From the NCBI RefSeq assembly GCF_963675165.1, contig NC_087390.1:3176001-3240000 (forward strand): 64,000 bases of DNA. The letters are read 5' to 3'. The notes beneath the pieces are model-generated. The model searched no databases. It worked only from the letters and a program-made list of their open reading frames with translations, and was not told where the DNA came from. The DNA is from Halichondria panicea (lineage: Eukaryota; Porifera; Demospongiae; Suberitida; Halichondriidae). Both the position numbers and the translations under genes were made by a program. Shown piece after piece: positions 4,563-62,470 of the stretch (the first letter of the stretch is position 1; each line of letters begins with the position of its first letter).

Positions 4563-6076
4563 ATGAAAGCCACATTTGTATCAAGATGCAAGTGCAAGTA
4601 CAGAGTGGGGTGGTTCTATTCAAAGGGAGCATTTCTTGTTTTGGTATGGATTATGCTGTTGACCATAACATGTTTCTCTGTGGGACATGTACTCAATATT
4701 ACGTACACCGCAATTCTACAAAATGATGGCTTGAACATTCCTAAGTGGGTAAATGCTATCCCAGCCATATTTGGTATGTTCGGAGCTGTTTTCTCGGGAT
4801 GGCTAGCCGACGCTAAGCTTGGGAACTACAGAGTTCTGAAATGCAGTTTTGTGCTTTTGTTTTTCACAAGTTTGTGTTGTAGTGCCTGCACCATAGTCCC
4901 TGGTAATATGCCGTACATATACGTTAAAAGTTTCTTATTTTGTATCGGTGTAGGTACGTACGTTTGTAGTATCTACAGTGGCATGCTTGGTTACTTTACT
5001 ACAACTCGGTTTGGACCAGATGCCTGATGCTTCATCTTCTAGTATCACCAGCTTTATTTCCTGGTTTATATTCAGTATATTTGCTGGTATTTGGATCAGT
5101 ACTTTATCAATACACTTTTATTCAAACAAAACATTGTCAATTTTGATTTTCCAGCTATACAGTTTAGTTCCACCTTTTTGTATGACTGGTGTCTTAGTTT
5201 CAGACTTCATTTTTGCCAAAAAATTGTTGATAAGTCACCTCAGTCCCTCAAAACCATCTACCAAGTTCTCAAGTTTGCAGCCAAGCACAAGGCTCCCCTA
5301 AATCGCAGTGCTCTCACATACTGGGAGGAAGATGTACCTTCAAGAATGAACTTGGAAAATGGGAAAGTCTAAGTATGGTGGACCATTCACTACAGAGCAA
5401 GTTGAAGATGTAAAGACCATCTTACGTTTGTTGCCCCTCTGCTTAACACTATGGTTACTAGGGTGCTCACTTGCATTCTTTCATCCATCAACTTCTGTTA
5501 CGGTTTATCTTCCTAATTGGACCCTATATTCATCCATGTTTCTGGCCTTATTCACTTACAACTCTTGGTGGTGTGGTGTGGTTTGGACTGTCTTATATGA
5601 GTTTGTAATCTACCCAGTAATACAAAATAGACTTCTCAGCATCCTTAGAAGACTTGGAATAATCTCTTTCTTCATAATGGCTCTCAGTATTGTGTTCCTA
5701 ATTCTGGAAGTAGTACACTACTATCACAGTGATTTAATGGCAGTCTGTTTCATCATTGACATATTGCATTCAGTTTCTAAAGGTTTGTTCACAATGCTGC
5801 TTTTTAGTACATGCTGGAGTTTGTTTGTGCTCAACCTCCATAAGAGGATTGTTTGGAGGGTGTACGATTCTTGTGTTGTTTTCATCATTTATTATCAGTT
5901 ATAATCTTCCGTTGAATCTCACACTTACAATGTATGGGATTAGAGTAGGCATCAGTCTGCTTGGATTCATCCTGTACTGCCTCCTGGCTCGCTGGTACAA
6001 GAGGAGAGTTAGAGACGAGGACTATAATACACAAACGGTTGTGGAGGAAATCTATGATCGTTACTTGTCAGCTTAG
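4563..6076 (+). pseudogene. POT/SLC15-like transporter, multiply frameshifted
   Basis: The family start (CKCKYRV.WFYSKGA), GWLADAKLGNY, DQMPDASSSS, the cytosolic HKAPLNRSALTYWEED segment, GGPFTTEQVEDVKTILR and the C-terminal RWYKRRVRDEDYN are all present in order but not in one frame. Frame changes lie near 4965 (before the DQMPD segment), near 5232 (loss of the bases encoding IEPK), near 5355 (an extra base around GAAAATGGGAAAG), and near 5812-5850, where paralogs read LELVCAQAPYNMRG and bases are missing. Length matches intact paralogs. It was probably a full transporter of the WLADAKLGNY subgroup that has decayed recently, since the codons are otherwise well kept. Confidence 0.85.
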
Positions 6077-6481
6077 TAGTGAGTGATATTTTCTGGGGAA
6101 GGGGGTTGTTATTATAGAGTTATAATTATAGCAAATGCATTGACTGCAGCCTCCACCTCATGCAATAGTTATACTAAGCACATCAATGTTACTCATCATG
6201 TATTATAGCAGTACGTATACATGCAGTGTATATGTGAGGTATCAACTATTACATTGTTTTATCAGTGAGATGTGCTGCATAATTTTTTTATTGTATTGTA
6301 TTACATCAGTTTAGAATATTGCTTAAAGGTTTTTCATTTACCACATGATTTTTGTTATTTACTACAATCAGCTACGTAGCAGCACAGTAAAAAGAATTTA
6401 ATCGTCTTCACCGACAATGAATGACTTAATTATGAGTAGGAGCTTGCATGAGGAAGTGATGTATACAATTATATATACATA

Positions 6482-6735: not shown

Positions 6736-8641
6736 TTTTTTATTTTTTTTTTTTTATGATAATAAACATGTAATGAATGAGTGACTGAGGCTTAAATATA
6801 GATATGACAGGGTAATGTGAAGCTATAATATTATTATTATTCAGAGTTTAGACAGAGAGGTTGGAGTCCGCAATGGTGAGGTCCACGGAAGCAGCTAGAT
6901 GGCCGTTGAAGGATGACTTCGAAGATCTGGCGCCTCTCAGACACATGATGGAGGATCTGAGTAGAGAGAAAGATATTCTACATCTTAGCCAGCCAATGGT
7001 GGTGCTGTATGGTTGCTTCCATTTGTCTGAGAGCATGCTGGCCAGGCGTTTGTAGAAGGCTCCAGCTGCTGGGCCAAGGCCACCTGTGGTAGCGAAGACC
7101 AGGGGGGTAAAAGAGGAGTGCTCCACTTCTCTTATACGTTGTTCATAGTGCCTCTTTTTCAGGTTCTCATGGTGGCGATAAGATGCGGTTAGAGAGGAGT
7201 GTCTGTTCGAGGGAGCAAATGGGTTAAAAACCCTAACGTCAAAGAACGCTCTCTCGAAAGAACTTCCCCAAAAACCATTAGCCACTACATCAAGACGGGC
7301 ACCGTTCTGTCGATTTGCGGTGGTTCTGTTGAATGTTTCGCTTGTGATGGGTTGTAGAGACGGTTCAGTGGCCACTCCATGGCAAGTTTCTTTTAAAAGC
7401 GATGCTGTGATGTCTCTCAGCTCGTTGTGTCTAATTGAGGGGAATCCTCCTCTAGGGCACGAGAGGGCATGTTGCACTGAAAAAGAATGGCCACACACAC
7501 AGTTTGTGGGGATCTGCGATGGGGGCCAGCCATACCGAAGGGCAATGGCATCACGGAATGCTGTTTTGTGGAGTGCGAATCCGTGCTCTTCTAGCGGTAA
7601 AGCAGTGAGCCAGCTGGAGGCACCTTTTTCTCTTGCAAGGTCTGTTGCTAATTGCATTGGTGGTGTGAGAAACTCTTGTATCTCATTAGCCACCTGCAGT
7701 CCTGTACTTCTTCTTGTTTCTTTTATTTTGTTCTTTGTGTTGATTTGGTGTACGAGGACTTCATAGGGGTAATTTTTGTTTTGCGAAGCTATTAAGTCAA
7801 CGAGAGGTTTTGTCACCTGTTGTGATGATGTGTATTGTTCGACTGCCAACGACGCCGGGTTTCCTATATTTAAACCTCCTAGGCGAGCGGGGAGGGCAAA
7901 TAGACTCCTCTCGAGATCATTGGGTGCGTCTCTGCCTGTAAGTTTTGGGAGCAAGGTGGTTCGAATGGAGTTCTCAAGGGGAAGCAGTAGTTGGTCAATA
8001 TCTGGGGTAGTTCTTGAGAGGTAGGCCCATTTACTTGCAAGGCCATGAGTGATAGCACCATAGGCTGCGTGCGGTTGGCTGTCTGCTATTTCCGACAGTT
8101 TTTCAATTTCCGCTATCCAGTGTGTTACTTTTCCTGTTACAAAATCAGATATGAACTCCTGTTTGCCAATTGGGGAACCAAGCACTGGTCTTCCTTCCGT
8201 GGTGATGTTGACCTCGGAATCCCCAAATATCTGAGAGGCTGTGGAGAGGGAGCCATCTTTAGTGACTAGCCACGTTTTCTTGGGGTTAACAAAGTAACCA
8301 AAAGATGGACCAAGTTTTGTCAAGTTGTCCCACCATTTCTTCAGGTCTGAAATTTTGCCTGCAGCAGTGGCATCATCAGCATACCAGATCTGTTTTAGGT
8401 CGGGTGTGTCTGTGGACAATCTGTCGATCAGGGGTTTTGTTGCTAGAGCATAAAAGGGCATTGCTAAAGGATCTCCTTGTGTGGTGCCCTCTTGGGACAG
8501 CAGGGTGTTGGCTCCTAAAAAGAGATCTGTGCTTTCTCTGTAGATGTTAATTAGAGCGGTGGAGAAGGGGGGGCAAAGAGTTTGAATGTTCATTAGGCCA
8601 TTGGCTCTATTAAAGTTGTTAAACGCATTGCTGGCGTCTTG
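6736..8641 (-). mobile_element. 5'-truncated non-LTR retrotransposon with 9-bp target-site duplication
   Basis: On the minus strand an RT ORF is followed by a short 3' region (6847-6760) and an A-rich tail, seen as a T-run at 6736-6757 on the + strand. The nonamer CAAGCGAAT occurs at 6727-6735 and again at 8642-8650, exactly flanking the element. A-tail, 5' truncation and target-site duplication together indicate target-primed reverse transcription. It landed in or beside a pogo-like MITE. Confidence 0.85.
6848..8641 (-). CDS. Reverse transcriptase with zinc knuckle and nuclease-like C-terminus (N-terminally truncated)
   Basis: About 597 codons stay open. The first element-derived codons read QDASNAFN, which fits RT motif A with its catalytic Asp. 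QGDPLAMPFYAL follows (motif B), then WYADDATAAG, the YADD catalytic box. After the thumb-like region comes CVCGHSFSVQHALSC, a CCHC-type knuckle. The C-terminus has RLDVVANG...FFDVRVFNP and a YRHHENLKKRHYE stretch, which I read as a possible PD-(D/E)xK restriction-like nuclease as in R2/NeSL-type elements. The upstream fingers and any N-terminal DNA-binding domain are missing, so the copy is dead. The gene has no true ATG at its 5' end because the coding region is cut by the truncation. The RT assignment is firm; the clade is a guess. Confidence 0.85.
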   Translation of the reverse strand, partial: QDASNAFNNFNRANGLMNIQTLCPPFSTALINIYRESTDLFLGANTLLSQEGTTQGDPLAMPFYALATKPLIDRLSTDTPDLKQIWYADDATAAGKISDLKKWWDNLTKLGPSFGYFVNPKKTWLVTKDGSLSTASQIFGDSEVNITTEGRPVLGSPIGKQEFISDFVTGKVTHWIAEIEKLSEIADSQPHAAYGAITHGLASKWAYLSRTTPDIDQLLLPLENSIRTTLLPKLTGRDAPNDLERSLFALPARLGGLNIGNPASLAVEQYTSSQQVTKPLVDLIASQNKNYPYEVLVHQINTKNKIKETRRSTGLQVANEIQEFLTPPMQLATDLAREKGASSWLTALPLEEHGFALHKTAFRDAIALRYGWPPSQIPTNCVCGHSFSVQHALSCPRGGFPSIRHNELRDITASLLKETCHGVATEPSLQPITSETFNRTTANRQNGARLDVVANGFWGSSFERAFFDVRVFNPFAPSNRHSSLTASYRHHENLKKRHYEQRIREVEHSSFTPLVFATTGGLGPAAGAFYKRLASMLSDKWKQPYSTTIGWLRCRISFSLLRSSIMCLRGARSSKSSFNGHLAASVDLTIADSNLSV

Positions 8642-8650
8642 CAAGCGAAT

Positions 8651-11285: not shown

Positions 11286-13204
11286 GTTATAGTTAAACAA
11301 TGGCCTCGAGTGGTATATTTGATTTACACGCGAGAGTAATCTGATAAACCACGAGGCGCAGCCGAGTTGGTTTATCTGATTACTCGAGCGTGTAAAGCAA
11401 ATATACCACGAGAGGCCATAGTTTAACTGGCTTGTACTATGTTTAGAACTGTACTACTATGTTTAGCTACTTCCTGTCATGCTTCTTCAATGAATATGCT
11501 TATAACTACTGTTTGACGTCACTGTTGCTATAACTATGCAATGAATTTGCTATTTTTTTAAAAAGCGATGGCTGATTCAAGCAAGCGTCTATGATTCAAG
11601 CAAGCAATTGTGAAGGCTGTGTTTCTGCATCTTTATAGAAGGCACTTCAAGAAAGTACACTGGTGCTACTTGTCTACAAAGAGTGCAAATGTACCCCAAA
11701 ATATCATTCCACAAGCCTACTGTACTGGCCCAGTGCAGTGCAGTCTCTTTAGTCTGAGAAACACTTGGCAGTCTGGACCCTTCTTACTGCTCCTGGTCCC
11801 ATGCAGCAATGTAATAAGCAGGTTGTGACAACCAATGTTGAAAGTTGAAAAAAAGCAACACAAACAAACCAGTATCGTTCGATTCACGATCACAGAGTTC
11901 TTCCAAATTTGCCTCCTTTTTGGAACTATTTATCGCTCGAACTTGGCTCTTTTTATGTTGACTAAAATCATTAGTATAGTAGTCTGTTTTGTATTGAATT
12001 CTCTCTAACTCTAATATTTATGCCTCGAGGCGTAGCCGCACGAGGGATACGGTAAAGCTGACTGTGTGTGTCTGTGTGTGTGTGTGTCTGTGTGTCTGTT
12101 CCAGCTGTAACTGCTCAACGGTTGCAATACGACGAAAACTAACAGCTTCTATAGGCTTCTAGCCACGTTCTCTTGGATTTTGATTCGTGGATTAGCAAAC
12201 TAAAGCTTCTTTCTAGAGTTATGGCTAGTTTGACTCACATTGAAGGCTGTTGCAGTCTCTTCAGAATCTTTCATAGCATCATCTGTCCGCACAAACTTTC
12301 TATTCAACATATGAGTTAGCCTTGCACTAAAGCGCTAGCTTTTTGTTAGCTACAAGACTCAGAAAATACCTGTTAAAACAGCTAGCTAGCAGTAGCCATT
12401 TGTGAAATTGATCTCTTTGGACACACCCTTTAATTATTCCTATGGATGTAATGCGCATGCGCGCTCATTCCCCAGATCCAGAATCATATTTTTCTTGAGG
12501 GCCTGGTAAGCCACAAAACACTACTATAGATAACAATATGTATGTACACAAGTCTTTTCTTCTTAAATATTATAATTATACACTGCATGAACTACAGATC
12601 CAATTTTCTTCTTTCTTGAGGTCCTGGTATTAAAGCCACATAATACAACAATAGATGCATGTAATAAGTCTTTTCTTCTCAGTGACTTTATATAGATAAG
12701 CTAACTTTATGAAATAATTATGCACTTCCGCTTATAATTAATTGAAAACAAAATCTTCTTCTTTGTTGCTTCCTAGATCCTTGAGGTCCTGGTATAAGCA
12801 GCCACAAAACACAACAATGATACCATAATTATACAATTGCAAGTTAGTTTTAGACAGATTATTTTATACACTTTTTCCTCTTCTATACTTTCTCTTCTAT
12901 ACTTTTGAGCGAAAGCAAATCATGGCGAGAGGCATTAGCACAGCGCCAGCTTGAACACTAGTGCTAATATTGATTGAATTGAGTAGTGTGTCATTGTTTT
13001 AATTGAAACAGTGTGTCAATTTTGTTGCAAAGGTGGGATACTGTATTCAGTTCTAGCTGTACATGTAGTTTGACCACAGCCATGGTATATGGCAGTTATA
13101 CACTAGGGTATAACTGCCATATACCATGGCTGTGGTCAGACAGGTTGTATAAGTAGTATAAACTACAACTGAAGCCTTTGATCTTTGGTGCAACCATAGT
13201 ACAA
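11286..13204. mobile_element. Fold-back (palindrome-rich) element with a nested insertion
   Basis: One end reads GTTATAGTTAAACAATGGCC and the other ...GGTGCAACCATAGTACAA. The same ends bound an inverted copy at 46091-47064. Close to each end is a large imperfect palindrome: about 11296-11432 (arms carrying GGTATATTTG and TTTACACGC) and about 13076-13142 (arms carrying CCATGGTATATGGC). A 72-codon open stretch at 11610-11828 is nearly identical in the other copy but lacks an ATG start, so I do not call it a gene. The element is enlarged by a 945-bp insertion at 12019-12963. No target-site duplication is seen at the outer ends and the class is unknown. Confidence 0.75.
12019..12963. mobile_element. 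Insertion flanked by 8-bp direct repeat, inside the fold-back element
   Basis: CTAATATT occurs at 12011-12018 and 12964-12971, and only once at the matching point of the uninterrupted copy near 46350. That identifies an insertion with an 8-bp target-site duplication. The left part carries the TATGCCTCGAGG...(TG)n repeat family. The right half holds three diverged direct repeats of about 130 bp marked by TTGAGG(T/G)CCTGGTA (near 12494, 12615 and 12780). No ORF of note. An 8-bp duplication fits hAT-like transposition, but matching terminal inverted repeats are not evident. Confidence 0.7.
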
Positions 13205-14472: not shown

Positions 14473-15993
14473 CTAAGGTGGATTACGAGGTGTTAGATAT
14501 CGATCATAGACCTCCTCCACCACTCTGTGTGCATTGTAGTCCTCATCTCTAACTCTCCTTTTGTACCAGCGAGCCAGGACACAGTACAGAATGAATCCAA
14601 GCAGACTCATAGCGGCCTTGATTCCAATCACAATCAGTGCCATTTCATTTTTTTCTGAGGCAATTGCACCACTTATAAAAATACCAGCATATGTAGAGGT
14701 AACATAAGTTACACTCATAAAAACAGCAAATAATCTCCGCATGTTGTATGGGGCCTGAGCACAAACTAACTCCATAAGTGCACAGAGAAAAAAATTTGAC
14801 AGCAAACCGCTCGACACAAACGATAAAATACTTATTGCTTCGTTTTTGTGAAGAACCTCAAATAATTGTATCAAAATGAGTACTATACTCAACATTAAAG
14901 AAAGGAAGGAAATACTACCGATTCTTTTTAGAATACTTGGAAGTCTATCTCTTAGAAGTGGGTAAATAAGGAACTCATTAATCAGGGTACTGATCATAGA
15001 CCACCACTGATCACTGTACGTGAAATGGAAAAACATGTCAGATTCGCAGTTGGTGAAATTATTCAATTGAATTTTTATAGTTGTAGGATTAAAAGCAAGC
15101 GCAAAAGAGATTAACCATATTGGTAGACTCATAGCCAACAATCGTAAAATTGATTTAACGTCTTCAACTTGTTCTGTAGTGAATGGTCCACCGTATCTCA
15201 ACTTTCCCAGGTCCATTCTTGAAGGTATATCTTCCTCCCAGTATGTGAGAGCACTGCGATTGAGGGGAGCCTTGTGCTTGGCTGCAAACTTGACAATCTG
15301 ACAAATAGTTTTAAAAGATTTTGGTGGGTTAGGCTCGATAATCAACCAGCTTTTAGCGAAAAGAAAGTCAAGAATAAGAATAAAACTTGCAAATATAGGA
15401 GGACACAGACTATATAGCTGGGTAATACTTACTGAATCTACAACTAACCCGAAACAGTTGTCCTTCAAGACAAAATCCAAAAACTCCCCAATCCATCTAC
15501 CAGCACTTATACTGAACACAATCCAAGCGATAAAACTAGTGATACTAGAAGATGATGCATCAGGCATCTGATCCAGGCCCAGCTGTAGTATACACATGAA
15601 ACATGTGAGGGCCACCACACCCAAACACAATAACATACAGTATACGACTTCATTGATGAGCCTGTACTTTCCAAAACCAAAGCCGTATCCTAGTCTAGGA
15701 CCGAGGACTAGGACGTATATGCTGGAAACCATTGTTACAAGAAACAGGAGGATAAATCCGATTCTTGATATTGTGTAGTCCTGAAGCTTGGAATGGGCTA
15801 ACAATCCGAGACACGATGTTATCAGCAGAACTAACGAAATTGATATCGCACCTAGCCACACAGGATACATTACTTTAACTACATTGACTGTGAAAACGAA
15901 AGTCCTAGCTGCAACACTCGCAAGCAGCATCCAAGCTAGAACGAGGTAGGCTCCCTTTGAGTAAAACTTTCTGACTCTGTATTTACAACTCAT
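14473..15993 (-). CDS. POT/SLC15-like transporter, second subgroup, intact (506 aa)
   Basis: Starts MSCKYRVRKFYSKGAYLVLAW at an ATG. It shares the family landmarks DQMPDASSSSITSFIAW, HKAPLNRSALTYWEEDIPSRMD, GGPFTTEQVEDVKSILR, CAQAPYNMR and RWYKRRVRDEDYNAH. It differs from the neighbours after TM2: the signature loop reads LLAHSKLQDYT instead of WLADAKLGNYR, so the conserved acidic residue is lost. It groups with 47962-49482 and with fragments at 41350 and 43637. Single exon, about 12 predicted spans. It lies on the opposite strand to the flanking copies, so the array is not a simple head-to-tail series. Substrate unknown; transport activity is inferred from family only. Confidence 0.8.
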   Translation of the reverse strand: MSCKYRVRKFYSKGAYLVLAWMLLASVAARTFVFTVNVVKVMYPVWLGAISISLVLLITSCLGLLAHSKLQDYTISRIGFILLFLVTMVSSIYVLVLGPRLGYGFGFGKYRLINEVVYCMLLCLGVVALTCFMCILQLGLDQMPDASSSSITSFIAWIVFSISAGRWIGEFLDFVLKDNCFGLVVDSVSITQLYSLCPPIFASFILILDFLFAKSWLIIEPNPPKSFKTICQIVKFAAKHKAPLNRSALTYWEEDIPSRMDLGKLRYGGPFTTEQVEDVKSILRLLAMSLPIWLISFALAFNPTTIKIQLNNFTNCESDMFFHFTYSDQWWSMISTLINEFLIYPLLRDRLPSILKRIGSISFLSLMLSIVLILIQLFEVLHKNEAISILSFVSSGLLSNFFLCALMELVCAQAPYNMRRLFAVFMSVTYVTSTYAGIFISGAIASEKNEMALIVIGIKAAMSLLGFILYCVLARWYKRRVRDEDYNAHRVVEEVYDRYLTPRNPP

Positions 15994-19933: not shown

Positions 19934-21464
19934 ATGATGGGAGCCAAATCAATAACAAGCAAGTGCAGAGGGAGGTGCTTCTATTCTAAGGGAGCCGCTC
20001 TCATTTTGGTCTGGATTATGCTGGTGACCATAGCATACATCTCTGTAATAAATACAGTTAAAGCGTACGTAGAGCTAAAAAATGACTTTATCTTACCAAA
20101 GTGGCTACCTGCTATCCCATTTGTGTTTGGTTTGTTGGGAGCTGTTTTCTCGGGATGGCTAGCAGACGCTAAGCTGGGGAACTACAACGTGATGAAATCA
20201 AGTTTTGTACTATTGTTGTTCATAAGCTCGTGTTTTAGTGCATTCACCCTAGTCCCTGGTATCATGAATTACAAATATGTTGTGAGTGTCTTGTATTGTA
20301 TAGGTGAGAGTATTTTTGTAGTAGCTGTAGTAGCATGCTTGGTTACTTCATTACAGCTTGGTTTGGATCAGATGCCTGATGCTTCATCTTCTAGTATCAC
20401 AAGTTTTATTGCTTGGTTTGTATTCAGTATCTACACTGGTGTTTGGATCAGCTCTTTTCCAAATTTGTTGATAAAATTCTGTTCAAATACAGCTATTTGG
20501 TTTATCCAGCTATACAGCATAGTTCCACCTCTTTGTATGACTATTGTCCTAGTTTCAGACTTAATATTTGTAAAAAAGTGGTTACTAATTGAACCAAAAT
20601 CTCCTCAGTCTCTCAAAACCATCTACCGAGTTCTCAAATTTGCAGCCAAACACAAAGCTCCCATCAATCGCAGTGCTCTCACATACTGGGAGGAAAATAT
20701 ACCTTCAAGAATGGACCTGGGAAAGTCGAGGTACGGTGGACCATTCACTACAGAGCAAGTTGAAGATGTAAAAACAATCTTACGTTTATTTCCTCTCTGC
20801 TTAACGCTATGGCTACTAGGGGGCTCACTTGCAATCTTCCATCCCCAAAGTTTTGTGACAGTCGCTCCAACAGGCTGGACCTCGTGTACTTCCAGACTTC
20901 TTGTCCTTGTTCACATACAACTCTCGGTGGTGTGGTATGGTTTGGACAGTCTTATATGAGTTTGTGATTTACCCAGTGATACAAAACAGTCTTCCCAGCA
21001 TTATTAGGAGAATCGGAATCATTTCTCTCCTCACAACAACTCTCAGTATTGTGTTTCTAATTCTGGAACTAGTCCTCTACTATCACAGTGATTTAGTGGC
21101 GGTGGATTCTGTCATTGATATTATACATTCAGTTTCTAAAGGTTTTCTTACAATACTGCTTGCTAGTACCATGCTGGAGTTGGTTTGTGCTCAAGCTCCA
21201 TACAACATGAGAGGATTGTTTTGTGGGTGTATGGTGTTGGTGTTGGTTTTATCCTTTTTTGTTGGCTATTATTTCCCATCAAACATAAAAATGACAATAT
21301 ATGGGGTTAGAGCGGGCATCAGTCTCCTTGGATTCATCCTGTACTGCCTCCTGGCACGCTGGTACAAGAGGAGAGTTAGAGACGAGGACTACAATGCACA
21401 AACTGTTGTGGAGGAAGTATATGATCGATACTTGTCAGCTCAGCATTCTGGACATGCCGAATAA
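19934..21464 (+). pseudogene. POT/SLC15-like transporter with one frameshift
   Basis: ATG at 19934 (MMGAKSITSKCRGRCFYSKGA). The frame is intact through GWLADAKLGNYNVM, DQMPDASSSS, HKAPINRSALTYWEENIPSRMD and GGPFTTEQVEDVKTILR to about 20900. There CTTCTTGTCC carries one more T than the 9255 paralog (CTTCTGTCC). Reading continues in the next frame (FTYNSRWCGMVWTVLYEF) to the normal C-terminus RWYKRRVRDEDYNAQ, with a slightly longer tail ending HSGHAE. With a single base removed, the length would match intact copies. Either a very young pseudogene or a sequencing/assembly error. Bases 20700-20905 are almost identical to the 9255 gene. Confidence 0.8.
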
Positions 21465-38577: not shown

Positions 38578-38849
38578 AGATAACTAATCACGCCCATGCA
38601 TGGACCCATGGAGGCTTAGCCATCTTGTTAGAGAGCAGCTTCCGTATTTCTGTTGCAGTTCTGACATGTTCGTAGCACCACTGAAATGACTCTATTATTA
38701 TGGGTTGTAGTATAATTATTTCAATGGTGTACTCGGACTGATTAAACCCCAGCAGGAAATAATAATAATTTTATTATCAATAATTATTATTCAAAATTGA
38801 AAACACAAGGTGACAAGCAGTGTAAATATATACATTGAAAACTCACAAG

Positions 38850-39767: not shown

Positions 39768-41349
39768 AATTATACTTATACAGATTGCCTCATCACGACA
39801 ATATAACGTCCAACTTGGGTGCTTTTTCTACAATCATGCACCTAGAACACAGCAATGTATAGCTAGTCAGGTTTTTTATATAATTATATAACCATGCAGC
39901 TACAGGCAAAAGCAAATGAATTCATAGTTTCCACGATGGCATGCATATGCAGTCATGATAATTATGGTATTGCACAAGCTTCAACAAGCGTAGCGATATT
40001 CATGCACACATGCACACATGGTAATGACATAGCAGCTACAAGACCAAACAATGTCAGCCACAATTAGCCCTAACAGCAGATCTTCAACGATCGATAGAGG
40101 CCACGGTGGTTTTCTGATTCACCTTGGCTCCATTGCAGTACCTCAGTCCGAACTGAGTGCGGGACACCATAGTCTGAAGTTTTGTCTACTGCAGTGATCT
40201 GTGTGTACAGCTCGATGGGTCGGGAGAGGGCGGGTGTCCCTGACAACAGGACAGCCCTCCGAGCACTCTGGGTGTGGGAGGGGGGGGGGGAAATATCATA
40301 CTTGGGTTATGAGTACAGTTGTATGTATACATGCATTAACTAGACTAGCAAAATATCATATACGTGTGTTCAGTATATGTGTGCATGTGCATGTACATGC
40401 CATCCCATCAAGCCTTAGAATGGCTGAAACTTTTTCGGAGAAAGGTTTTTAATATTCAGTAGAGCTAATGAATTTACTTTGAGCCATCAAATCTACATAC
40501 TTGGAATCCTTCTAATTAATCATAGCTTCTTGGCAACCCAGCATAATCAACACACTATACACTGTCTACATATACCTTGATGACTGGAATGGCTGCTTTG
40601 GAGTGAGCAGTGCGATAGTTCTTGAGAAAGTGCATGGGACTCATCCTACACAACAAAAACACACTATGATTATACCAGAGTAAACAATTTTCCTGTTGGG
40701 ATTTAATCTCCATTTAGTTAGTATAGAAGTGGCCATTGCAAATAATTATAATACACACTATTAAAAATGGACTCAAATTTAAGTAATCTACCCCCCCCCC
40801 CGCCCCCCCCCAGGTATTTAATTATAGCGGAATATGCATCATTGGCTTTAATTTATAGTAACACAGATACACTAGATACCGCAATAATGGTACAAGCCGT
40901 CTATATAGCTAACAGTGTTTCTGTACATTTATATTCCCTCTCGTGCAGGGAGTCACCAGCAGTCAGGCTCAACAGATTTATATTAAATTTATAATGCATG
41001 CATGTGCTGGTATACTAAAACGCCATGGCTATAACACAAAAATGATGTTTGTGCAAGCAGTATTTGTGTTTTTTTATTGAGAACATTTTCACTATAATTA
41101 TATCAAAGTGAAAAATGTTATTCTTACGTAATTATTATAGTACAGAGCAGATTCAGCATTTTCGTTAAGTTGTTTACAGAGTCTATTTTCACTTTATTAA
41201 TACACATACGCTTGTGCTAATGCATGGGTATACATACCTTATACCAGACAGTCTCTTACAAAGACTCATAATTATAACAGTTACTATTAGTTATATACCA
41301 CTATAGGTCTACAGCTATACATAATTATTGTCGAAATGAGCTGTAAATA
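39768..41349. other. Duplicated intergenic DNA (block A)
   Basis: Closely matches 45111-46090 and 47065-47965. No gene believed: the short frame at 40201-40452 is not kept in the copy. It contains a poly(C) run near 40792-40811. The junction 40720/40721 is the empty site of the 974-bp element present in the other copy. Confidence 0.7.
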
Positions 41350-41520
41350 ATTTTTATAGAGTGAGAAAGTTCTACTCAAAGGGAGCCTACCTTGTGCTAG
41401 CTTGGACACTGCTTGTGAGTGTTGCAGCTACTGCTATCTATGGCATAATCGAGACACTTTTTACAGACTACCCTAAATGGCTAGTCACAACAACACTGGC
41501 ATTTTTCCTCCCATCCTGTA
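41350..41520 (+). pseudogene. 5' fragment of a POT-like transporter (split copy, part 1)
   Basis: Encodes VRKFYSKGAYLVLAWTLLVS and about 30 further residues, nearly identical to the start of the 47962 gene. The first codons are altered (an extra AATTTTT after TGTAAAT). Homology stops at TTCCTCCCATCCTG and resumes 2.1 kb downstream at 43637. Confidence 0.85.
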
Positions 41521-41720
41521 TAATTATGTGTGTGGATGGAAACAGTGTGTCATAATTAATATAACTATATATGGCAACTATTGTTAACTACTACAACCAA
41601 GTTGCTATATACGTAGACGTATAGTCCAGAGCTTTCACTTCTATGTGATTATAGCGGTCACATGAAACACTGGCATTGTGCTTAAAACCATTCTCTGTCA
41701 AGTTACAAAGCCAAGCCAAG

Positions 41721-43636: not shown

Positions 43637-43930
43637 TTGTTTCCAGAATATATACCATATATGTCTCGGATTTTTAGCCAATTACAAGCTTCAAGATTAG
43701 ACGATAGTGAGGATAGGAATTGTCACCATGTTTTTTGTAACAATGGTTTCCAGTATATACATCTTAATCTTAGGTCGTGGATTAGGATATGGTTTTGGAA
43801 AGTACATGCAGGCTCATCAATGAAGTCGTATACTGTATAATACTTCGTGTGTTTTTGGTGGCAATGACGTGTTTTGTCTGCACACTACAGCTTGGTTTGG
43901 ATCAAATGCCTGATGCTTCTCTTCTATAGT
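43637..43930 (+). pseudogene. Internal fragment of a POT-like transporter (split copy, part 2)
   Basis: Matches 48138-48410 of the intact gene: TTTTTAGCCAATTACAAGC through TTGGTTTGGATCAAATGCC. Substitutions and small indels break the frame. It continues the homology interrupted at 41520. After about 43945 no homology is seen. Confidence 0.85.
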
Positions 43931-43945
43931 ATCGCTATATAGTTG

Positions 43946-44334
43946 TTTGAGCCCTTTCTCGGTATAGACAAATAGTTAGCTAAGTGATACTAGACAGGCT
44001 AGATCTAAATAGAAACAGGTTCTATTCCCCTATATGCAATTGAAATACTGTAGCTAAGCTATAGCAAGCATTTATGCAAATTGACTTCACTATTGCTGTG
44101 CCAACAATTCTTATAATTATAGAGAGCAAAGTGAGTACAAAATGGCTGCAGGAGCACAAAGTACAGTGATAGAGGCCCTGGGTGGGGCTCACATGAACAA
44201 AGAGAGGAAATGTTTAACAATAGTGAGGCTAAATGCTAGAGTCCAAAAGTACAACTTGACTGCAGCAAATTATGGTTTAAATTGTAGTAAATATTACGTA
44301 ATAAGGTATAACATGTATATGCACCAACAGCAAT
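43946..44334. other. Intergenic
   Basis: An open frame from an ATG at 44142 (MAAGAQSTVIEALGGAHMNK) runs toward the duplicated block but has no recognisable motif. No gene called. Confidence 0.4.
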
Positions 44335-44582
44335 ATGTCAACTCCTACAGATACTCAAGAGTCTCCTGGGTCCAAGCGCTGGCCATTCTCAACGTCCCTT
44401 ACTGGAGTTGCAAGCTCTTTTAGATCACGCCCATGCATGGACCCATGGAGGCTTAGCCATCTTGTTAGAGAGCAGCTTCCGTATTTCTGTTGCTGTTCTG
44501 ACATGTTCGAAGCACCACTGAAATGACTCTATTATTATGGGTTGTAGTATAATTATTTCAATGGTGTACTCGGACTGATTAA

Positions 44583-45110
44583 GGTCACTTCTGAATGGCC
44601 ATCTTTTCGATACAAATACGATGCTTTGATTGGAATCACAGTGCTATAAAAGCTGAGTGCAGTACCAGTAGATTCAAAGATTTCCTTAAACGTCTCATCA
44701 ATGCCATTGGCTCCATCAAAAACGGGGACAACCTGATCACGATATATCGCTTGTAGCTATCAACTATCTCTCCAAAGGTCTGGGTCAGGTAGGAGGTAAG
44801 AGCTCATTTCAAAGGCTGCATTTTTATCATCTTTGGAGGAGTGGTGTAGTAGAGAGTGTGCCACAAATTCTTGAAGATGGGGAGTTAGTTTGTTAGTTTC
44901 TTTGGATGTTAAGGAAGCCAGAAGCTCCTTAAACACAATTTCTACAGATTCTTTCAGTAGACCTTTGATAAATATTCCCACCTTTCCATCAAATGATTAA
45001 AATGAGGCCAAAGAATTTTTGAAACTTCTTCTCTGGAAAATATCTTTGGTCCATCATTAAAGAAGAGGGTTAGCTGTTCTTTAGAGGCATCGAATCTTTT
45101 TGTTGCCATA
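44583..45110 (-). pseudogene. Truncated copy of the 38850-39767 gene
   Basis: Starts MATKRFDASKEQLTLFFNDG at about 45110, lacking the codons after MATK that the intact gene has. The frame is lost near 44970 (missing base before ATATTCCCACC) and the 3' portion beyond 44583 is deleted. Confidence 0.85.
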
Positions 45111-46090
45111 ATTATACTAATACAGATTGCCTCATCACGACAATAATAATAACGTCCAACTTGGGTACTTTTTCTATACAACTATGCACCTAGAACACAG
45201 CAATGTATAGCTAGTCAGGTTTTTTATATAATTATATAACCATGCAGCTACAGGCAAAAGCAAATGAATTCATAGTTTCCACGATGGCATGCATATGCAG
45301 TCATGATAATTATGGTATTGCACAAGCTTCAACAAGCGTAGCGATATTCATGCACACATGCACACATGGTAATGACATAGCAGCTACAAGACCAAACAAT
45401 GTCAGCCACAATTAGCCCTAACAGCAGATCTTCAACGATCAATAGAGGCCACGGTGGTTTTCATTACTCCTGATTTACCTTGGCTCCATTGCAGTACCTC
45501 AGTTCGAACTGTGTGTGGGACACTATAGTCTGAAGTTTTTGTCCACTGCAGTGATCTGCATGTGTGTATACAGTTCGAAGGGTCGGGAGAGGGCGGGTGT
45601 CCCTGACAACAGGACTCCGAGCACTCTGCACTCTGGGTGTGGGAGGGGGGGAGGTAAATATCATACTTGGGTTATGAGTACAGTTGTATGTATACATGCA
45701 TTAACTAGACTAGCAAAATATCATATAATTATGTGTGTTCATGTAGTATATGTGTGCATGTGCATGTGTGTGTGTGTGTACATGCCATCCCATCAAGCCT
45801 TAGAATGGCTGAAACTTTTTCGGGAGAAAGGTTTTTAACGTCACAATATTCAGTAGAGATAATGAATTTACTCTGAGCCATCAAATCTACATACTTGGAA
45901 TCCTTCTAATTAATCATAGCTTCTTGGCAACCCAGCATAATCAACACACCATACACTGTCTACATTCACTGGAATGGCTGGTTTGGAGCGAGCAGTTCGA
46001 TAGTTATTGAGAAAGTGAGACTGATCCTACACAACAAAATACACTATGATTATACCAGAGTAAAAAATGTTCCTGTTGGCCATTTAGTTA

Positions 46091-47064
46091 TTGTACTATG
46101 GTTGCACCAAAGATCAAAGGCTTCAGTTGTAGTTTATACTACTTATACAACCTGTCTGACCACAGCCATGGTATATGGCTGTTATACCCTAGTGTATAAC
46201 AGCCATATACCATGGCTTGTGGTCAAACTACATGTACAGCTAGAACTGAATACAGTATCCCACCTTTGCAACAAAATTGGGTTTTTTGACACACTGTTTC
46301 AATTAAAACAATGACACACTAGATCTACTCAATTCAATCAATATTAGAGCTAGAGAGAATTCAATACAAAAAAGGGTCTACTAATGTTTTAGTCAACATA
46401 AAAAGAGCCAAGTTCGAGCGATGAATAGTTCCAAAAAGGAGGCAAATTTGGAAGAACTCCGTGAACCGAACGATACTGGTTTGTTTGTGTTGCTTTTTTT
46501 CAACTTTCAACATTGGTTGTCACAACCTGCTTATTGCATTGCTGCATGGGACCAGGAGCAGTAAGAAGGGTCCAGACTGCCAAGTGTTTCTCAGACTAAA
46601 GAGACTGCACTGCACTGGGCCAGTACAGTAGGCTTGTGGAATGATATTTTCGGGTACATTTGCACTCTTTGTAGACAAGTAGCACCAGTGTACTTTCTTG
46701 AAGTGCCTTCTATAAAGATGCAGAAACACAGCCTTCACAATTGCTTGCTTGAATCATAGACGCTTGCTTGAATCAGCCATCGCGCTTTTTAAAAAGATAG
46801 CAAATTCATTGCATAGCTATAGCAACAGTGACGTCAAACAGTAGTTATAAGCATATTCATTGAAGAAGCATGACAGGAAGTAGCTAAACATAGTAGTACA
46901 GTTCTAAACATAGTACAAGCCAGTTAAACTATGGCCTCTCGTGGTATATTTGCTTTACACGCTCGAGTAATCAGATAAACCAACTCGGCTGCGCCTCGTG
47001 GTTTATCAGATTACTCTCGCGTGTAAATCAAATATACCACTCGAGGCCATTGTTTAACTATAAC
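46091..47064. mobile_element. Fold-back element, uninterrupted copy (974 bp)
   Basis: Begins TTGTACTATGGTTGCACC and ends GGCCATTGTTTAACTATAAC. It is an inverted copy of 11286-13204 without the nested 945-bp insert. Palindromes near both ends: about 46158-46228 and 46920-47058. Block A reads straight across CATTTAGTTA/GTATAGAAGT at 40711-40730, so this is an insertion relative to a known empty site. Confidence 0.85.
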
Positions 47065-47961
47065 GTATAGAAGTGGCCATTGCAATATATACACACATGC
47101 ACTATTAAAAATGGAAACTCAAACTTTGAGTGGGTAAGTAATCTACCCCCCCCAGGTATTTAAGAATTAATTATAGCGGAGTATGCATCATTGGCTTTTA
47201 TGTAACATCATTTATAGTAACACAGATACACTAGATACCGCAATAATGGCTGAGAATCTGTGCTCTTGTGTGCATGCAGTACTGAAACAGGTACAAGCCG
47301 TCTATAGCTAACAGTGTTTCTGTACATTTATATTCCCTCTCGTGCAGGGAGTCACCAGCAGTCAGGCTCAACAGAAGTGTGGAATGAATTACCACTGGAG
47401 CTGCAGGAAAGTATATACATCGATTTTGTCATTTAAGAGAAATGTACTCTGTCACTTGCATTAGTATATTAAATATTAGTCTTTATTTTTAATTTGTACT
47501 CGCTATTGTAAGTAATATATACAGGGCACACATTAGGTTAGCGTAATATGCTACTAGTGTATCCATGCATTTTGCAGAATTATTATAAAAAAAAAAAGTA
47601 TATTAAATTTATAATGCATGCATGTGCTGGTATACTAAAACGCCATGGCTATAACACAAAAATGATGTTTGTGCAAGCATGCAGTGTTTGTGTTTCTTTA
47701 TTGAGAACATTTTCACTATAATTATATCAAAGTGACAAATGTTGTTCTTACGTAATTATTATAGTACAGAGCAGATTCAGCATTTTCGTTAAGTTGTTTA
47801 CAAAGTCTATTTTCACTTTATTAATACACATATACGCTTGTGCTAATGCATGGGTATACATACCTTATACCAGACAGTCTCTTACAAAGACTCATAATTA
47901 TAACAGTTACTATTAGTTATATACCACTATAGGTCTACAGCTATACATAATTATTGTCGAA

Positions 47962-49482
47962 ATGAGCTGTAAATATAGAGTGAGAAAGTTCTACTCAAAG
48001 GGAGCCTACCTTGTGCTAGCTTGGACACTGCTTGTGAGTGTTGCAGCTACCGCTGTATATGGCATAATCGAGACACTTTTTACAGACTACCCTAAATGGC
48101 TAGTCACAACAACACTGGCATTTTTCGTCCCAATAATACTATGTCTTGGATTTTTAGCCAATTACAAGCTTCAAGATTACACGATAGTGAGGATAGGAAT
48201 TATCACCATGTTTCTTGTAACAATGGTTTCCAGCATATACGTCCTAATCCTAGGTCGTGGATTAGGATATGGTTTTGGAAAGTACAGGCTCATCAATGAA
48301 GTCGTATACTGTATACTACTTTTTGTGTTTTTGGTGGCAATGACGTGTTTTGTCTGCACACTACATCTTGGTTTGGATCAGATGCCTGATGCTTCATCTT
48401 CTAGTATCGCTAGTTTTATCGCTTGGTTTGTGTTCAGTATAAGTGCTGGTAGCTGGGTTGGAGAGTTAGGACATTATATGATATTGAAGGACAACTGTTT
48501 CGGGTTAGTTGTAGATTCAATAGGTACCCAGATTTATAGTCTGTGTGCTGCTTCATTTGCAAGCCTAATTCTTGTTCTCGACCTCCTTTTCGCTAAACGT
48601 TGGCTGATTATCGAGCCTAACCCACCGAAATCTTTTATAACTATCTACCAAGTTCTCAAGTTTGCTGTCAAGCACAAGGCTCCCCTCAATCGCAGTGCTC
48701 TCACATACTGGGAGGAAGACATACCTTCAAGAATGGACCTGGGAAAGTCGAGATACGGTGGACCATTTACTACAGAACAAGTTGAAGATGTGAAATCAAT
48801 TCTACGATTGTTTGCTATAAGCCTACCCTTGTGGTTAATCTCGTTTGCGCTTGCTTTTAGTCCCACAATTTATAACATTCCATTAAACCCTAATCTCTCC
48901 AACTGCACATCTGACATGCTTTTCTCCTTCACGTACAGTAATTATTGGTGGTCTATGATTGGTACCCTGGTTAATGAATTCTTAATCTACCCACTTTTCA
49001 GAAATAAACTTCCAAGTATTCTAAAGAGAATCGGTATTGCTTCCTTCCTTTCTCTGGTTTTGAGTATTGTATTCGTTATTATGCAATCATTCGAGGTTCT
49101 TCACAGAAATGAGGTAATAACTGTTTTATCTTTTATAATAAAAGGTTTGCTGGCAAATTTTTGTTTTAGTGCAATGCTGGAGTTAGTTTGTGCTCAGGCC
49201 CCATACAACATGCGAAGATTATTTGCTGCTTGTGCGAGTTTTAATGTTACATCCTCTACATTTGCTGGCATTTATGTAAGTGGTGCAATTCCAATGGATA
49301 ATAATAATAAAATGGCACTAATCATGTTTGGAATCAAGGCCGCTATGAGTCTGCTTGGATTCGTCCTGTACTGCCTCCTGGCTTGCTGGTACAAGAGGAG
49401 AGTTAGAGACGAGGACTACGATGCACACAGAGTGGTGGAGGAGGTCTATGATCGATATCTAAATCCAAGTATTACTAACTAA
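47962..49482 (+). CDS. POT/SLC15-like transporter, second subgroup, intact (506 aa)
   Basis: ATG at 47962: MSCKYRVRKFYSKGAYLVLA. Closest relative in the window is 14473-15993; both have KLQDYT in the loop after TM2 (FLANYKLQDYTIVR) where the other subgroup has ADAKLGNY. Family segments: LGLDQMPDASSSSIASFIAWF, IEPNPPKSF, HKAPLNRSALTYWEEDIPSR, GGPFTTEQVEDVKSILRLF, CAQAPYNMRRLF, and C-terminus CWYKRRVRDEDYDAHRVVEE. About 12 predicted spans, single exon. It ends the duplicated block; the 5' 170 bp also survive at 41350 and the 3' end at 37785, so a whole gene was once present there too. Substrate unknown. Confidence 0.8.
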   Translation: MSCKYRVRKFYSKGAYLVLAWTLLVSVAATAVYGIIETLFTDYPKWLVTTTLAFFVPIILCLGFLANYKLQDYTIVRIGIITMFLVTMVSSIYVLILGRGLGYGFGKYRLINEVVYCILLFVFLVAMTCFVCTLHLGLDQMPDASSSSIASFIAWFVFSISAGSWVGELGHYMILKDNCFGLVVDSIGTQIYSLCAASFASLILVLDLLFAKRWLIIEPNPPKSFITIYQVLKFAVKHKAPLNRSALTYWEEDIPSRMDLGKSRYGGPFTTEQVEDVKSILRLFAISLPLWLISFALAFSPTIYNIPLNPNLSNCTSDMLFSFTYSNYWWSMIGTLVNEFLIYPLFRNKLPSILKRIGIASFLSLVLSIVFVIMQSFEVLHRNEVITVLSFIIKGLLANFCFSAMLELVCAQAPYNMRRLFAACASFNVTSSTFAGIYVSGAIPMDNNNKMALIMFGIKAAMSLLGFVLYCLLACWYKRRVRDEDYDAHRVVEEVYDRYLNPSITN

Positions 49483-50489: not shown

Positions 50490-50715
50490 TTTTAATCTTA
50501 ATTCAGATCGGGGAGATACAACGTTTCCTAATTAGAGTGGATGGAAGAGTGTAAGTAAGCACCCTAGCTAGTAACCACGATAACGTTAAGCAGAGGGGTA
50601 AAACACATCTTCAACTTGCTCTGCATGTAGTTAGTGGTCTACCGTATCTCGACTTTCCCATTGCACGACCATTCTTGATATCAAGGTACGTCTTCCTCCT
50701 ATGCAGGCAATGAAA
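50490..50715 (-). pseudogene. Decayed fragment of a POT-like transporter
   Basis: CGGGGAGATACAACGTTTCC, GTGGATGGAAGAGTGTAAGT, CATCTTCAACTTGCTCTGC, CGTATCTCGACTTTCCCA and TACGTCTTCCTCC match 61485-61680 of the minus-strand gene at 60914 in the same order, with deletions. Flanking DNA at 50700-51020 also resembles 62660-62940, so a larger duplicate has eroded. Confidence 0.75.
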
Positions 50716-59390: not shown

Positions 59391-59580
59391 CAGGCAATAC
59401 TAGTGATATTGGAAGATGAATTATCAGAATGCAAGCTCAAAATTGACAAACTGTTTGCAAAAAATGATGAATATGTGCATGCATGTGTAAACAATTGGTA
59501 TACATCTTGCATAAAAGATAATTTATTGTCAAAACAAACCTCCTATACCACATCCATGCATACAGTATAACGTTCTGCTA
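59391..59580 (-). pseudogene. Tiny fragment of a POT-like transporter and its 5' flank
   Basis: CCAGGCAATAC...AGTGATATTGGAAGATGAA matches 61960-61994 inside the 60914 gene. It is joined directly to sequence matching 62770-62900 (ATGTGCATGC, CATCTTGCATAAAAG, CAAAACAAACCTCC). The intervening 800 bp are deleted. Confidence 0.7.
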
Positions 59581-60913
59581 GTACATACATGACATATAGA
59601 TGGAAAATGAACATAGAATATTATTATACCGTATAGCAGGTGTATTGATCAGTTTGCCTTCTTTTCTGACACATGCGACTGATACTACCACGTGGTCCAC
59701 CACGCGCATGCTCAACACTCGACTTACCCGCGGCTCATACTTGGCGTTAACTACGTTTAATTGCATTAAACTACATTTAACGCCTTCGTATTTTCTCAAC
59801 ACCAACCACCTAATTAACCATTAACAACTTACCTGTAAAATAAGCCACAGCAGCCAAGTTAAGACATGGCCATTGTGTAGAGATTTGGCAAAGGCGTTCC
59901 CTGAGGGGAGGGGGGTGACCCCATCCCGCGACCCCTAACTAATTAGTCATGGGTCACGAGAGGGGTTTTGAGCCCAAATTAAGGGGAATTCCCCTTAATT
60001 AACCCCCCTGGCAAGAGGCATTTGAAGTATAATTGGTGATTATTATAATTTAACAATATGCTGCATGGCATTATTGATCATGCATTACCAGAAGTCTTTG
60101 GAGACTATTTAATTTGGCCATCCTCACCTGAATCGGCAAATATACCAGCTGCTATACGGTACAATGTATGTCTCACACAGTATTAAATTTATACACTTAT
60201 ATTATATAAGGACTTGTTTATCAAGGGTGCATGTCCTAATTTCAGAGGGCTGGTTTCTGTATGTGCTTCTGTTGAGTTGAGACTTTGGTTGAGTGCTCGG
60301 ATTATTAGAGGTGCATGCATGCATGCCTCTGCTATTGAGGGTTCCACGTAACAAATCACACCCATGGTATAATCAGTCAACGTGTACTACTAGGATATTT
60401 TGCGAGCATCAAACATAATTATGTGAATTTTACAAGGGTTGATCAATTCACAACAATAAAATTGCAAAATCTAAATTATTACTAGTATAAATACACACGA
60501 TCCTTGCCGATCGTAAAGGGTCAAATTTTCTACTGATTTGGTTCATTTGTAAAGGTTTTTCACCTAGAAGTATTCGGTATACAGGATAACTTGAACAGAT
60601 TTCTCCCAAACGGTTATATGAATCATGTTGCAGTTAAGACTTAGAGTGCATGTAGTTTCAGTATTCATGCACATGACATGTATCAATTGTTAAAAGATAC
60701 TCAAAGGAATGGTGTCCAATGAAAAATTGCATGTATATACTGTGGAGGAATGATTGACTAATTGTGTGTGCAAACACTGTTTACAAAATCGATGAATGGT
60801 TAACATGCGAACATATAAAACAAACACTATTGTTCTAAACATGCATGATCGACAAATTTGATATTTACAGAAAAATGAGTTAGACGTATTTATAACGGAG
60901 CTTATACATTTTG
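59581..60913. other. Intergenic, no gene seen
   Basis: 59700-60100 has similarity to 63000-63120 (ATGCTGCATGGCATTATTGA, GAATTTGGCCATCC), continuing the duplicated flank. A perfect 24-bp palindrome (AATTAAGGGGAA and its complement) lies at 59977-60000. Confidence 0.55.
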
Positions 60914-62470
60914 TTAGCGCTCAGCTGACAAGTACCGATCATAGATTTCCTCCACGACAGTTTGTGCATTGTAGTCCTCGTCTCTAACTCTCCTCTTGTA
61001 CCAGCGAGCCAGGAGGCAGTACAAGATTAATCCAAGCAAACTAACAGCGGCTTTAATCCCATATAATATTGTTAATGCGATGTTCCCTAGAAAAGAATCG
61101 CTAATAATTTCAGGTGAAAACAACACAAGTGCCATAAATCCACCAAATAATCCTCTCATGTTGTATGGAGCCTGAGCACAAACTAACTCTAGCATGTTAC
61201 TAGCCAGCAACATTGCGAGGAAACCCTGAAAAACTGAATGTATAATGTCAATGACATACTCGACTGCCACTAAATCACTGTGATAGTAGTGGACTAGTTC
61301 CAGAATTAGGAACACAATACTGAGAGCCGTGATGAAAAAAGAAATGATTCCAATTTTTCTAAAAATGCTAGGAAGCCTGTTACAAATCACAGGGTATAGA
61401 ACAAATTCATAAAAGACAGTCCAAACCATACCACACCACCAAGAGTTGTACGTGAATAAGGCCAGAAGCTCTGAAACATAACAATTCGAATTGGGGAGAG
61501 ACAACGTTTCATATAGTGGATGGAAGAGTGTAAGTGAGCATCCAAGAAGCCACAGCGTTGAGCAGAGGGGTAACAAACGCAAGATGGTCTTCACATCTTC
61601 AACTTGCTCTGTAGTGAATGGTCCACCATATCTCGACTTTCCCAGGTCCATTCTTGAAGGTACGTCTTCCTCCCAGTATGTGAGAGCACTGCGATTGAGG
61701 GGAGCCTTGTGCTTGGCTGCAAACTTAAGAACTTGATAGATGGTTTTGAGGGACTGAGGTGACTTTGGTTCAATTATAAGCCACTTCTTAGCTAGGAGGA
61801 AGTCAAGAATAAGAACAGCACTCATACACAAAGGTGGCAGCAAACTGTACAGTTGGACAACCCAGTGCGATAATTGACTGCTACACAAAGTATCGGATCT
61901 AATGGGCAAATTGGAAACAGTAGGTATCCAAACACCAGCATAGATACTGAATACAAACCAGGCAATAAAACAAGTGATATTGGAAGATGAAGCATCAGGC
62001 ATCTGATCCAGGCCTAGCTGTAGTGAGGTAACCAAACATGCTACCACAGCTACAATAGAGAGACTCCCACCTATGCAATACAAGACACTCACAACATACA
62101 CGTATTGTGCAATGCCAGGAACTAGGGTGAAGGCACTAGAAAGCAAACTTGTGAGGAACAACAGTACAAAACTGTATTTCATCACTCTGTAGTTCCCCAG
62201 CTTTGCGTCGGCTAGCCATCCCGAGAAAACAGCTCCGAACAAACCAAACACAATTGGGATAGGAAGTAGCCATTGTGAAATTACAAAATTGACATCAGGT
62301 CGTTTACGGTATACATGGGACACTGAAATACAAGATATAGTCAACAGTACGACCCAAACCAGAACAAGAAAGGCTCCCTTGGAATAGAACCACCTCACTC
62401 TGTACTTGCACTTGCAGCCATTCCTTGATACCAGAGGGCTGCCTCCATTCGTAGAGTTAGTTATTCTCAT
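60914..62470 (-). CDS. POT/SLC15-like transporter, intact (518 aa)
   Basis: The start is taken at the ATG at 62470 (MRITNSTNGGSPLVSRNGCK), which resembles the MMRAKRIT/MMGAKSIT starts of paralogs; an ATG at 62488 would add six residues. Landmarks: CKCKYRVRWFYSKGAFLVLV at TM1 (no ExxER), GWLADAKLGNYRVM, LGLDQMPDASSSNITCFIAWF, IEPKSPQSLKTIYQVLKF, HKAPLNRSALTYWEEDVPSR, GGPFTTEQVEDVKTILRLLP, CAQAPYNMRGLF and RWYKRRVRDEDYNAQ. About 12 spans, single exon. It lies 40 kb from its closest relatives (9255, 4563), and two decayed fragments of it lie at 50490 and 59391. Substrate unknown. Confidence 0.8.
   Translation of the reverse strand: MRITNSTNGGSPLVSRNGCKCKYRVRWFYSKGAFLVLVWVVLLTISCISVSHVYRKRPDVNFVISQWLLPIPIVFGLFGAVFSGWLADAKLGNYRVMKYSFVLLFLTSLLSSAFTLVPGIAQYVYVVSVLYCIGGSLSIVAVVACLVTSLQLGLDQMPDASSSNITCFIAWFVFSIYAGVWIPTVSNLPIRSDTLCSSQLSHWVVQLYSLLPPLCMSAVLILDFLLAKKWLIIEPKSPQSLKTIYQVLKFAAKHKAPLNRSALTYWEEDVPSRMDLGKSRYGGPFTTEQVEDVKTILRLLPLCSTLWLLGCSLTLFHPLYETLSLPNSNCYVSELLALFTYNSWWCGMVWTVFYEFVLYPVICNRLPSIFRKIGIISFFITALSIVFLILELVHYYHSDLVAVEYVIDIIHSVFQGFLAMLLASNMLELVCAQAPYNMRGLFGGFMALVLFSPEIISDSFLGNIALTILYGIKAAVSLLGLILYCLLARWYKRRVRDEDYNAQTVVEEIYDRYLSAER

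Follow-up and report, generated by a model that had tools for sequence, protein, structure and literature searches.

Can a family of transporters multiply through a genome after giving up the residues by which transport is coupled to protons? The question is raised by a window of 64,000 nucleotides (contig C14, bases 3,176,001-3,240,000, of an assembly with 39 contigs and 131 Mb in all) that carries several genes resembling those of proton-coupled oligopeptide transporters (POT, SLC15). A sequence-only reading had described them as a local expansion of POT-like transporters in which a basic stretch replaces the ExxER motif of the first transmembrane helix (TM1). We found that these short, intronless genes belong to a family that exceeds 230 copies when members are counted by motif and broken genes are kept in the count. 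The family is a derived POT lineage and not a canonical proton-coupled peptide transporter, because the defining charges were checked and were absent. We tentatively interpret the proteins, which lack known proton coupling, as sensors or scaffolds that would share one cytosolic partner surface.

Homology to POT transporters and the coupling residues

The five intact proteins of the window, each encoded in a single frame of 501-518 amino acids (aa), were 47-72% identical in pairwise searches. None of nine window frames, intact or broken, scored above the cut-off of any Pfam family (0/5 for the intact proteins). The proposed homology to POT/SLC15 was borne out by a single-protein match in the PDB (Table 1) and by two profiles. 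When a profile of 22 short members was used, the best match was SLC15A4 (E 2.7e-20), followed by the plant protein NPF2.10 (E 2e-10), two bacterial POTs and PepT1 (E 1e-5); 2xut, which we take to be PepTSo, scored E 5e-8. A second profile of 21 rows, made of 13 short members and 8 longer relatives from the same genome, matched SLC15A4 with E 4e-43 and SLC15A3 with E 2.6e-28. Pfam PTR2 matched 8 of these 21 rows at E <= 0.1, in a search that did not name them. All 8 longer rows passed the PTR2 cut-off in a separate Pfam search, and presumably none of the 13 short rows matched. A profile match outside POT was not found, no non-POT family rising above the Pfam cut-off. From these profile E values, the family descends from POT transporters, with SLC15A4 (PHT1) as its nearest relative by score. 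A 12-helix fold of the POT type within the major facilitator superfamily would be implied by homology alone.

Further likeness to SLC15A4 lies in the PHT linker signature GGPF-x4-VEDVK, seen in the SLC15A4 alignments, in the DQ motif after TM4 and in a LEFxxxxAPxxM segment. In contrast to SLC15A4, the short family lost ExxER, the TM4 lysine and the TM10 glutamate, gained conserved N-terminal and C-tail motifs, and comprises more than 200 intronless copies; transporters of the PHT1 type are encoded by few genes. With canonical POTs (DtpA, PepT1/2, 2xut) it shares distant homology over most of its length and, judged by eye against the canonical POT of the same genome, an acidic residue near the end of TM8. 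It differs from them in lacking the coupling and peptide-binding charges, and in an inverted constraint profile.

We examined the coupling residues in 47 loci (44 after three duplicates were dropped). This sample is non-random, consisting mostly of the top scorers of the genome search together with chosen divergent members; L072-L076 stand outside the statistics. The basic motif attributed to every window copy, CKYRVRxFYSKGA, was near-invariant in the sample, and the copies had a C-tail motif, RWYKRRVRDEDYxxxxVVEEVYDRYL, in common. Both glutamates and the arginine of ExxER were missing in 44/44 members in the register that we prefer (see below), three of which have lysine at the second glutamate. 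When aligned via an in-genome relative, L028, the site reads V/I/T-x-L-L/V-T/S. In the register of the sequence-only reading, Asp or Glu occurred at residues 20-33 in 0/44 members. The absence of ExxER thus held in either register. Asp or Glu occurred in the predicted TM1 (residues 34-53) in 2/44, and no conserved acidic pair was found elsewhere in that helix. The TM4 lysine and the TM10 glutamate have roles in proton-coupled oligopeptide transport; at these positions, located by their distance from the DQ and AP anchors, lysine was found in 0/44 and glutamate in 1/44. We infer that these proteins have ceased to work by the known proton/peptide cycle.

Other acids are conserved in the predicted helices, namely E355 (TM8) in 44/44, E428 (TM10) in 40/44 and D223 (TM6) in 39/44. 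Their conservation favors the view that the proteins are still ion-coupled, through E355, D223 and E428 or with a cation other than the proton. We consider this quite improbable, as E428 is common to the longer relatives (20/20) and SLC15A4 and may be structural, E355 occurs in 0/20 longer relatives, and the TM4 lysine and TM10 glutamate are also lost.

The longer relatives (L011-L038, about 575-665 aa) are located on C3 (5.66-5.85 Mb), C5, C8, C2, C10, C11 and other contigs, and 20 of 24 were retained by a minimum length of 575 aa. Like the short family, they are full-length single frames, most have the linker and C-tail motifs, and ExxER, the TM4 lysine and the TM10 glutamate are lost in 20/20. 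Unlike the short family, they pass the Pfam PTR2 cut-off, are longer, have no FYSKGA and carry an acid within the TM1 columns in 4/20. They form a second POT-derived expansion in this genome. The codon pattern of canonical ERFxYYG had one exact match in the genome, on C6, read as GNEFCERFSYYGMRG; since the reversed control gave three matches, its identification as a canonical exon depends on how it reads and on the strong PTR2 exon next to it. L028 (C17:4274961-4275572), with LERLAYY in TM1 and RSAFSYTxxxxPSRMDLAK in the linker, might be an intermediate form that links the derived families to canonical POTs.

Does the basic stretch occupy the place of ExxER, as had been proposed? This question of register is separate from the functional readings. 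A direct hhalign comparison of the short family with 14 bacterial POTs (a set cut to this size by hand) placed FYSKGAFLVL on YYGMRAILVL with a local confidence of up to 8 of 9. The same register was obtained weakly (confidence 1-4) from the short-plus-long profile. The addition of L028 to the profile switched the register (confidence 3-5). When L028 was aligned with bacterial POTs, ER fell on ER with high confidence. When it was aligned with the short family (E 2.9e-23, confidence 3-5), FYSKGA lay well ahead of the ER site, and in a MAFFT alignment its ER stood opposite L43-T44 of protein 60917, 17-18 residues past R26. FYSKGA also lay opposite the segment just before TM1 of the longer relatives (short versus long, E 5e-67), so that bridging through L028 and these relatives puts ExxER 17-18 residues later. 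Further, no more than nine residues precede FYSKG in 7/47 members, which could not supply the first third of TM1. Since this stretch is only 8-9 residues long in some members, we prefer the register in which the basic stretch probably precedes TM1. The register evidence is mixed, with no acid at the site in either case. Equivalence of FYSKGA and ExxER was judged improbable on account of the L028 bridge, the longer relatives and the short N-termini, despite the direct hhalign result, and the idea that the basic stretch stands in for ExxER is probably wrong.

Constraint, silent sites and duplication

We estimated the ratio of nonsynonymous to synonymous substitution rates (dN/dS) from 17 disjoint pairs of short members, 72-98% identical, after the three duplicate loci had been dropped. 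The ratio was lowest in the linker between TM6 and TM7 (0.17; bootstrap 5-95%: 0.11-0.24) and the other inner loops (0.19), intermediate in the C-tail (0.30) and N-terminus (0.32), and highest in the helices (0.50; 0.43-0.57) and outer loops (0.64; 0.56-0.74). Eight pairs of longer relatives gave 0.20 for the C-tail, 0.25 for the linker, 0.27 for the inner loops, 0.39 for the helices and 0.52 for the N-terminus, and their outer loops evolved fastest (0.91; 0.76-1.06). As a control we used enterobacterial DtpA, for which a species-genome search left 80 loci of close orthologues. In 39 DtpA pairs the values were 0.036 for helices, 0.037 for outer loops, 0.088 for inner loops with termini and 0.100 for the linker. 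Pairwise identity in the short family was 0.88 in the linker, 0.80 in the inner loops, 0.51 in the helices and 0.29 in the outer loops; the corresponding values among the 14 diverse bacterial POTs were 0.17, 0.26, 0.35 and 0.30. Thus, constraint is inverted with respect to bacterial POTs: the cytosolic parts are held, and the membrane and outer parts vary.

This inversion bears on the alternative that the proteins are proton-independent facilitators, i.e., passive carriers of the POT fold for many small solutes, whose membrane parts would track their substrates and whose inner loops would gate. Such carriers would agree with the lack of an acid at the ExxER site in all 44 members and with the retention of E355 and E428. 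In bacterial POTs, however, constraint is strongest on the helices and weakest on the linker, the reverse of what we observed, and in our judgement it would be unusual for more than 200 carriers to share one fixed linker of 67 residues. We regard this alternative as a serious rival, somewhat less probable than the sensor or scaffold reading.

The linker was also uniform at silent sites. Among 12 clade representatives less than 60% identical to one another, third-base identity at four-fold degenerate sites reached 0.70 +- 0.06 for the linker and 0.60 +- 0.06 for the C-tail together with TM12, versus 0.36 +- 0.02 elsewhere; base usage alone predicts 0.25-0.33. By block, the values were 0.49 for the N-terminal part, 0.42 for TM10-11, 0.36 for TM4-5, 0.33 for TM2-3 and 0.24 for TM8-9. 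Amino-acid conservation was alike in TM4-5 (0.86) and the linker (0.84; all 47 loci, duplicates included). In pairs below 50% identity on different contigs, silent identity was 0.73 in the linker versus 0.38 in the rest; in pairs on the same contig it was also raised in TM4-5 (0.60) and TM10-11 (0.70). Misalignment was rejected as a cause, since the well-aligned TM8-9 is saturated, as is TM4-5 among the clade representatives. Silent-codon constraint as the whole cause was judged unlikely, because silent identity between short and longer proteins was 0.22-0.54 over most of the linker (windows starting at 241-281), versus 0.68-0.78 when short members were compared with each other. The window that starts at 231 gave 0.72 between short and longer proteins versus 0.58 among short ones, and some local silent-codon constraint at the linker start is possible. 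The pattern is consistent with gene conversion, strongest in a cytosolic cassette, as the simplest reading.

How far does the family extend? Exact degenerate-codon patterns gave 273 matches genome-wide for the YGGPFTxE linker and 230 for the N-terminal RxFYSKGA, with none for either reversed pattern; both counts take in broken copies, and that for the linker also takes in genes of the longer relatives. The expansion is therefore real, but "local" understates it, as places were found on at least C1, C2, C3, C5, C6, C7, C8, C10, C14 and C15. Counted by hand, a 173-kb stretch of C5 holds 49 of the 100 linker matches that head the list, and 3/3 genes sampled from this array have no full-length open frame. 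Protein 14476 matched three places at 100% over 506 aa on its own contig, itself included, with relatives of 17724 and 19934 near each. Part of the window thus comes from a segment that occurs in three copies; in the sister segments the relatives of 19934 (C14:3149941, 3169966) have open frames, unlike the broken window copy. From the broken copies, the C5 array and the triplicated segment we conclude that the family evolved by birth and death through tandem and segmental duplication. A search of viral contigs with the family profile gave 30 pattern matches and no relatives.

The broken window copies, the C5 sample and the near-identical segmental copies would also be expected if arrays and segments expanded by mostly neutral or selfish duplication with no selected function. 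In contrast, no inner stop was found in 79 of the 87 best-scoring places of a search with one window protein (a set biased to intact copies, some partial), and short-family dN/dS was below 1 in every class (0.17-0.64). We consider this explanation very improbable.

Possible function of the family

The kept cytosolic surface, the diversified remainder and the lost coupling residues together suggest ligand-facing variants with a shared partner. The membrane cavity and outer face shown to a ligand would differ from copy to copy, and all copies would offer one cytosolic surface, formed by the N-terminal CKYRVRxFYSKGA, the TM6-7 linker and the C-tail, to that partner. Uniformity of the partner surface, with divergence of the rest, would follow from gene conversion of the cytosolic cassette together with birth and death in tandem arrays. 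A precedent exists in PHT1, which acts, according to excerpts of one report, as a transport-independent receptor for TASL, a protein that binds its inward-open cavity (PMC10502012). We hold the sensor or scaffold reading at somewhat less than an even chance. A bolder reading, which we consider somewhat unlikely, is that the POT fold has become a large receptor repertoire of hundreds of copies, in which the ligand-facing parts diversified and gene conversion maintained a single cytosolic surface for signalling. Such a repertoire would be a chemosensory or microbe-sensing family outside G-protein-coupled receptors, ion channels and classical immune receptors.

Several points weigh against the sensor or scaffold reading. 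For partner, ligand, expression and localization it draws on sequence only. A tentative placement in the PHT branch draws on the linker signature and the best SLC15A4 score, from profiles and not from a tree with human proteins; SLC15A3 was not among the matches reported for the single window protein and reached only E 2.5e-4 with the 22-member profile, below NPF2.10 and the bacterial POTs. The topology comes from homology and hydropathy; AlphaFold2 models built in two runs from window sequences only had a mean predicted local distance difference test (pLDDT) score of 43.9 and 42.5. The DtpA control compares bacterial orthologues with paralogues under an approximate topology. No class of sites in the short family, outer loops included, had a dN/dS as high as 1, which gives no sign of positive selection. 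The rise in silent identity of TM4-5 and TM10-11 in same-contig pairs means that homogenization extends beyond the linker and C-tail. Transporters with varied substrates, such as plant NPF proteins, could also diversify their membrane parts, and E355, E428 and D223 could serve another mode of coupling. The available text of PMC6288477 proposes passive transport for plant NPF2a/NAXT and most NPF7 proteins, which have no chargeable ExxER residues; this favors facilitators. According to the same text, certain plant NPFs of this kind still use the proton gradient, and E. coli DtpC functions despite a changed motif, according to excerpts of PMC9309889; both points favor coupling of another kind.

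The plant NPF2a (NAXT) and NPF7 proteins resemble the short family as POT relatives that lost the chargeable ExxER residues and form large families, as far as the available text goes (PMC6288477). They differ from it in that the profile score of NPF2.10 was weaker than that of SLC15A4, and that text has no mention of a homogenized cytosolic face for plant NPFs. We found no report of this POT-derived family among the 15-20 best papers listed by each search of open-licence PubMed Central, and the available portions of the genome papers on the sponges Ephydatia (PMC7385117) and Oopsacas (PMC10280926) do not mention it. "Solute carrier family 15" is named among the genes diversified in corals in an excerpt of PMC6208414, and that diversification may be related to this family.

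If the sensor or scaffold reading is true and the genome comes from a sponge, an early-branching animal would have turned a solute carrier into a repertoire resembling that of receptors. This would bear on chemical or microbe sensing in animals without neurons or adaptive immunity, and on how PHT1 came to act in signalling. Should the proteins be plain facilitators, more than 200 copies without coupling residues would still be a natural library of what the POT fold can do without protons.

Genes and neighboring features of the window

Four intact genes plus a fifth at 14473 and two broken full-length copies had been reported for the window, and all seven were recovered (Table 1). Of the five fragments also reported, tblastn of the five intact window proteins at E <= 1e-3 gave two clear ones and one marginal match. 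The two clear fragments cover adjoining parts of the protein and may represent one interrupted copy.

Table 1. POT-derived genes, broken copies and fragments in the window.
Feature	Position	Strand	Basis
Intact gene, 513 aa	9255..10796	+	ORF (open reading frame), alignment, tblastn
Intact gene, 506 aa (protein 14476)	14473..15993	-	ORF, alignment
Intact gene, 501 aa	17724..19229	+	ORF; PDB match to SLC15A4, E 3.4e-11 as single query
Intact gene, 506 aa	47962..49482	+	ORF, alignment, tblastn
Intact gene, 518 aa (protein 60917)	60914..62470	-	ORF, alignment, tblastn
Broken full-length copy	4566..6073	+	ORFs 4563-5027 and 5359-5904; tblastn
Broken full-length copy	19934..21446	+	Overlapping ORFs 19934-20959 and 20901-21464; tblastn
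5' fragment, residues 5-62 of 47962 product	41325..41534	+	tblastn E 4e-27
Fragment, residues 60-145 of 47962 product	43659..44054	+	tblastn E 9e-37
Marginal match in linker region, may be chance	50530..50682	-	tblastn E 0.001

Two segmental duplications were observed within the window. Bases 11286-11888 and 46460-47064 form an inverted one, in two pieces that are 98-99% complementary over about 600 bases. Bases 38587-41513 and 44424-48132 form a direct one, with pieces at 97-99% identity, which takes in the start of the 47962 gene and part of a 305-aa frame at 38850 that matched no Pfam family.

A unit of about 74 bases is repeated four times in tandem at 4058-4362, immediately upstream of the broken copy that starts at 4566. 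The 9255 gene is adjoined by a 598-aa frame (6848-8644) containing YADD, presumably a reverse-transcriptase motif; it had no Pfam match at E 0.001. Between two POT-derived fragments lies a 369-aa frame (41676-42785), seven-helix-like by eye and with no Pfam match. Three near-identical tRNA-Gly (GCC) genes are located on the minus strand at 32935-35074, and frames for a sulfotransferase (PF00685; 53366-54289) and a TRAF/MATH-domain protein (PF21355; 58668-59150) lie amid the POT-derived genes.

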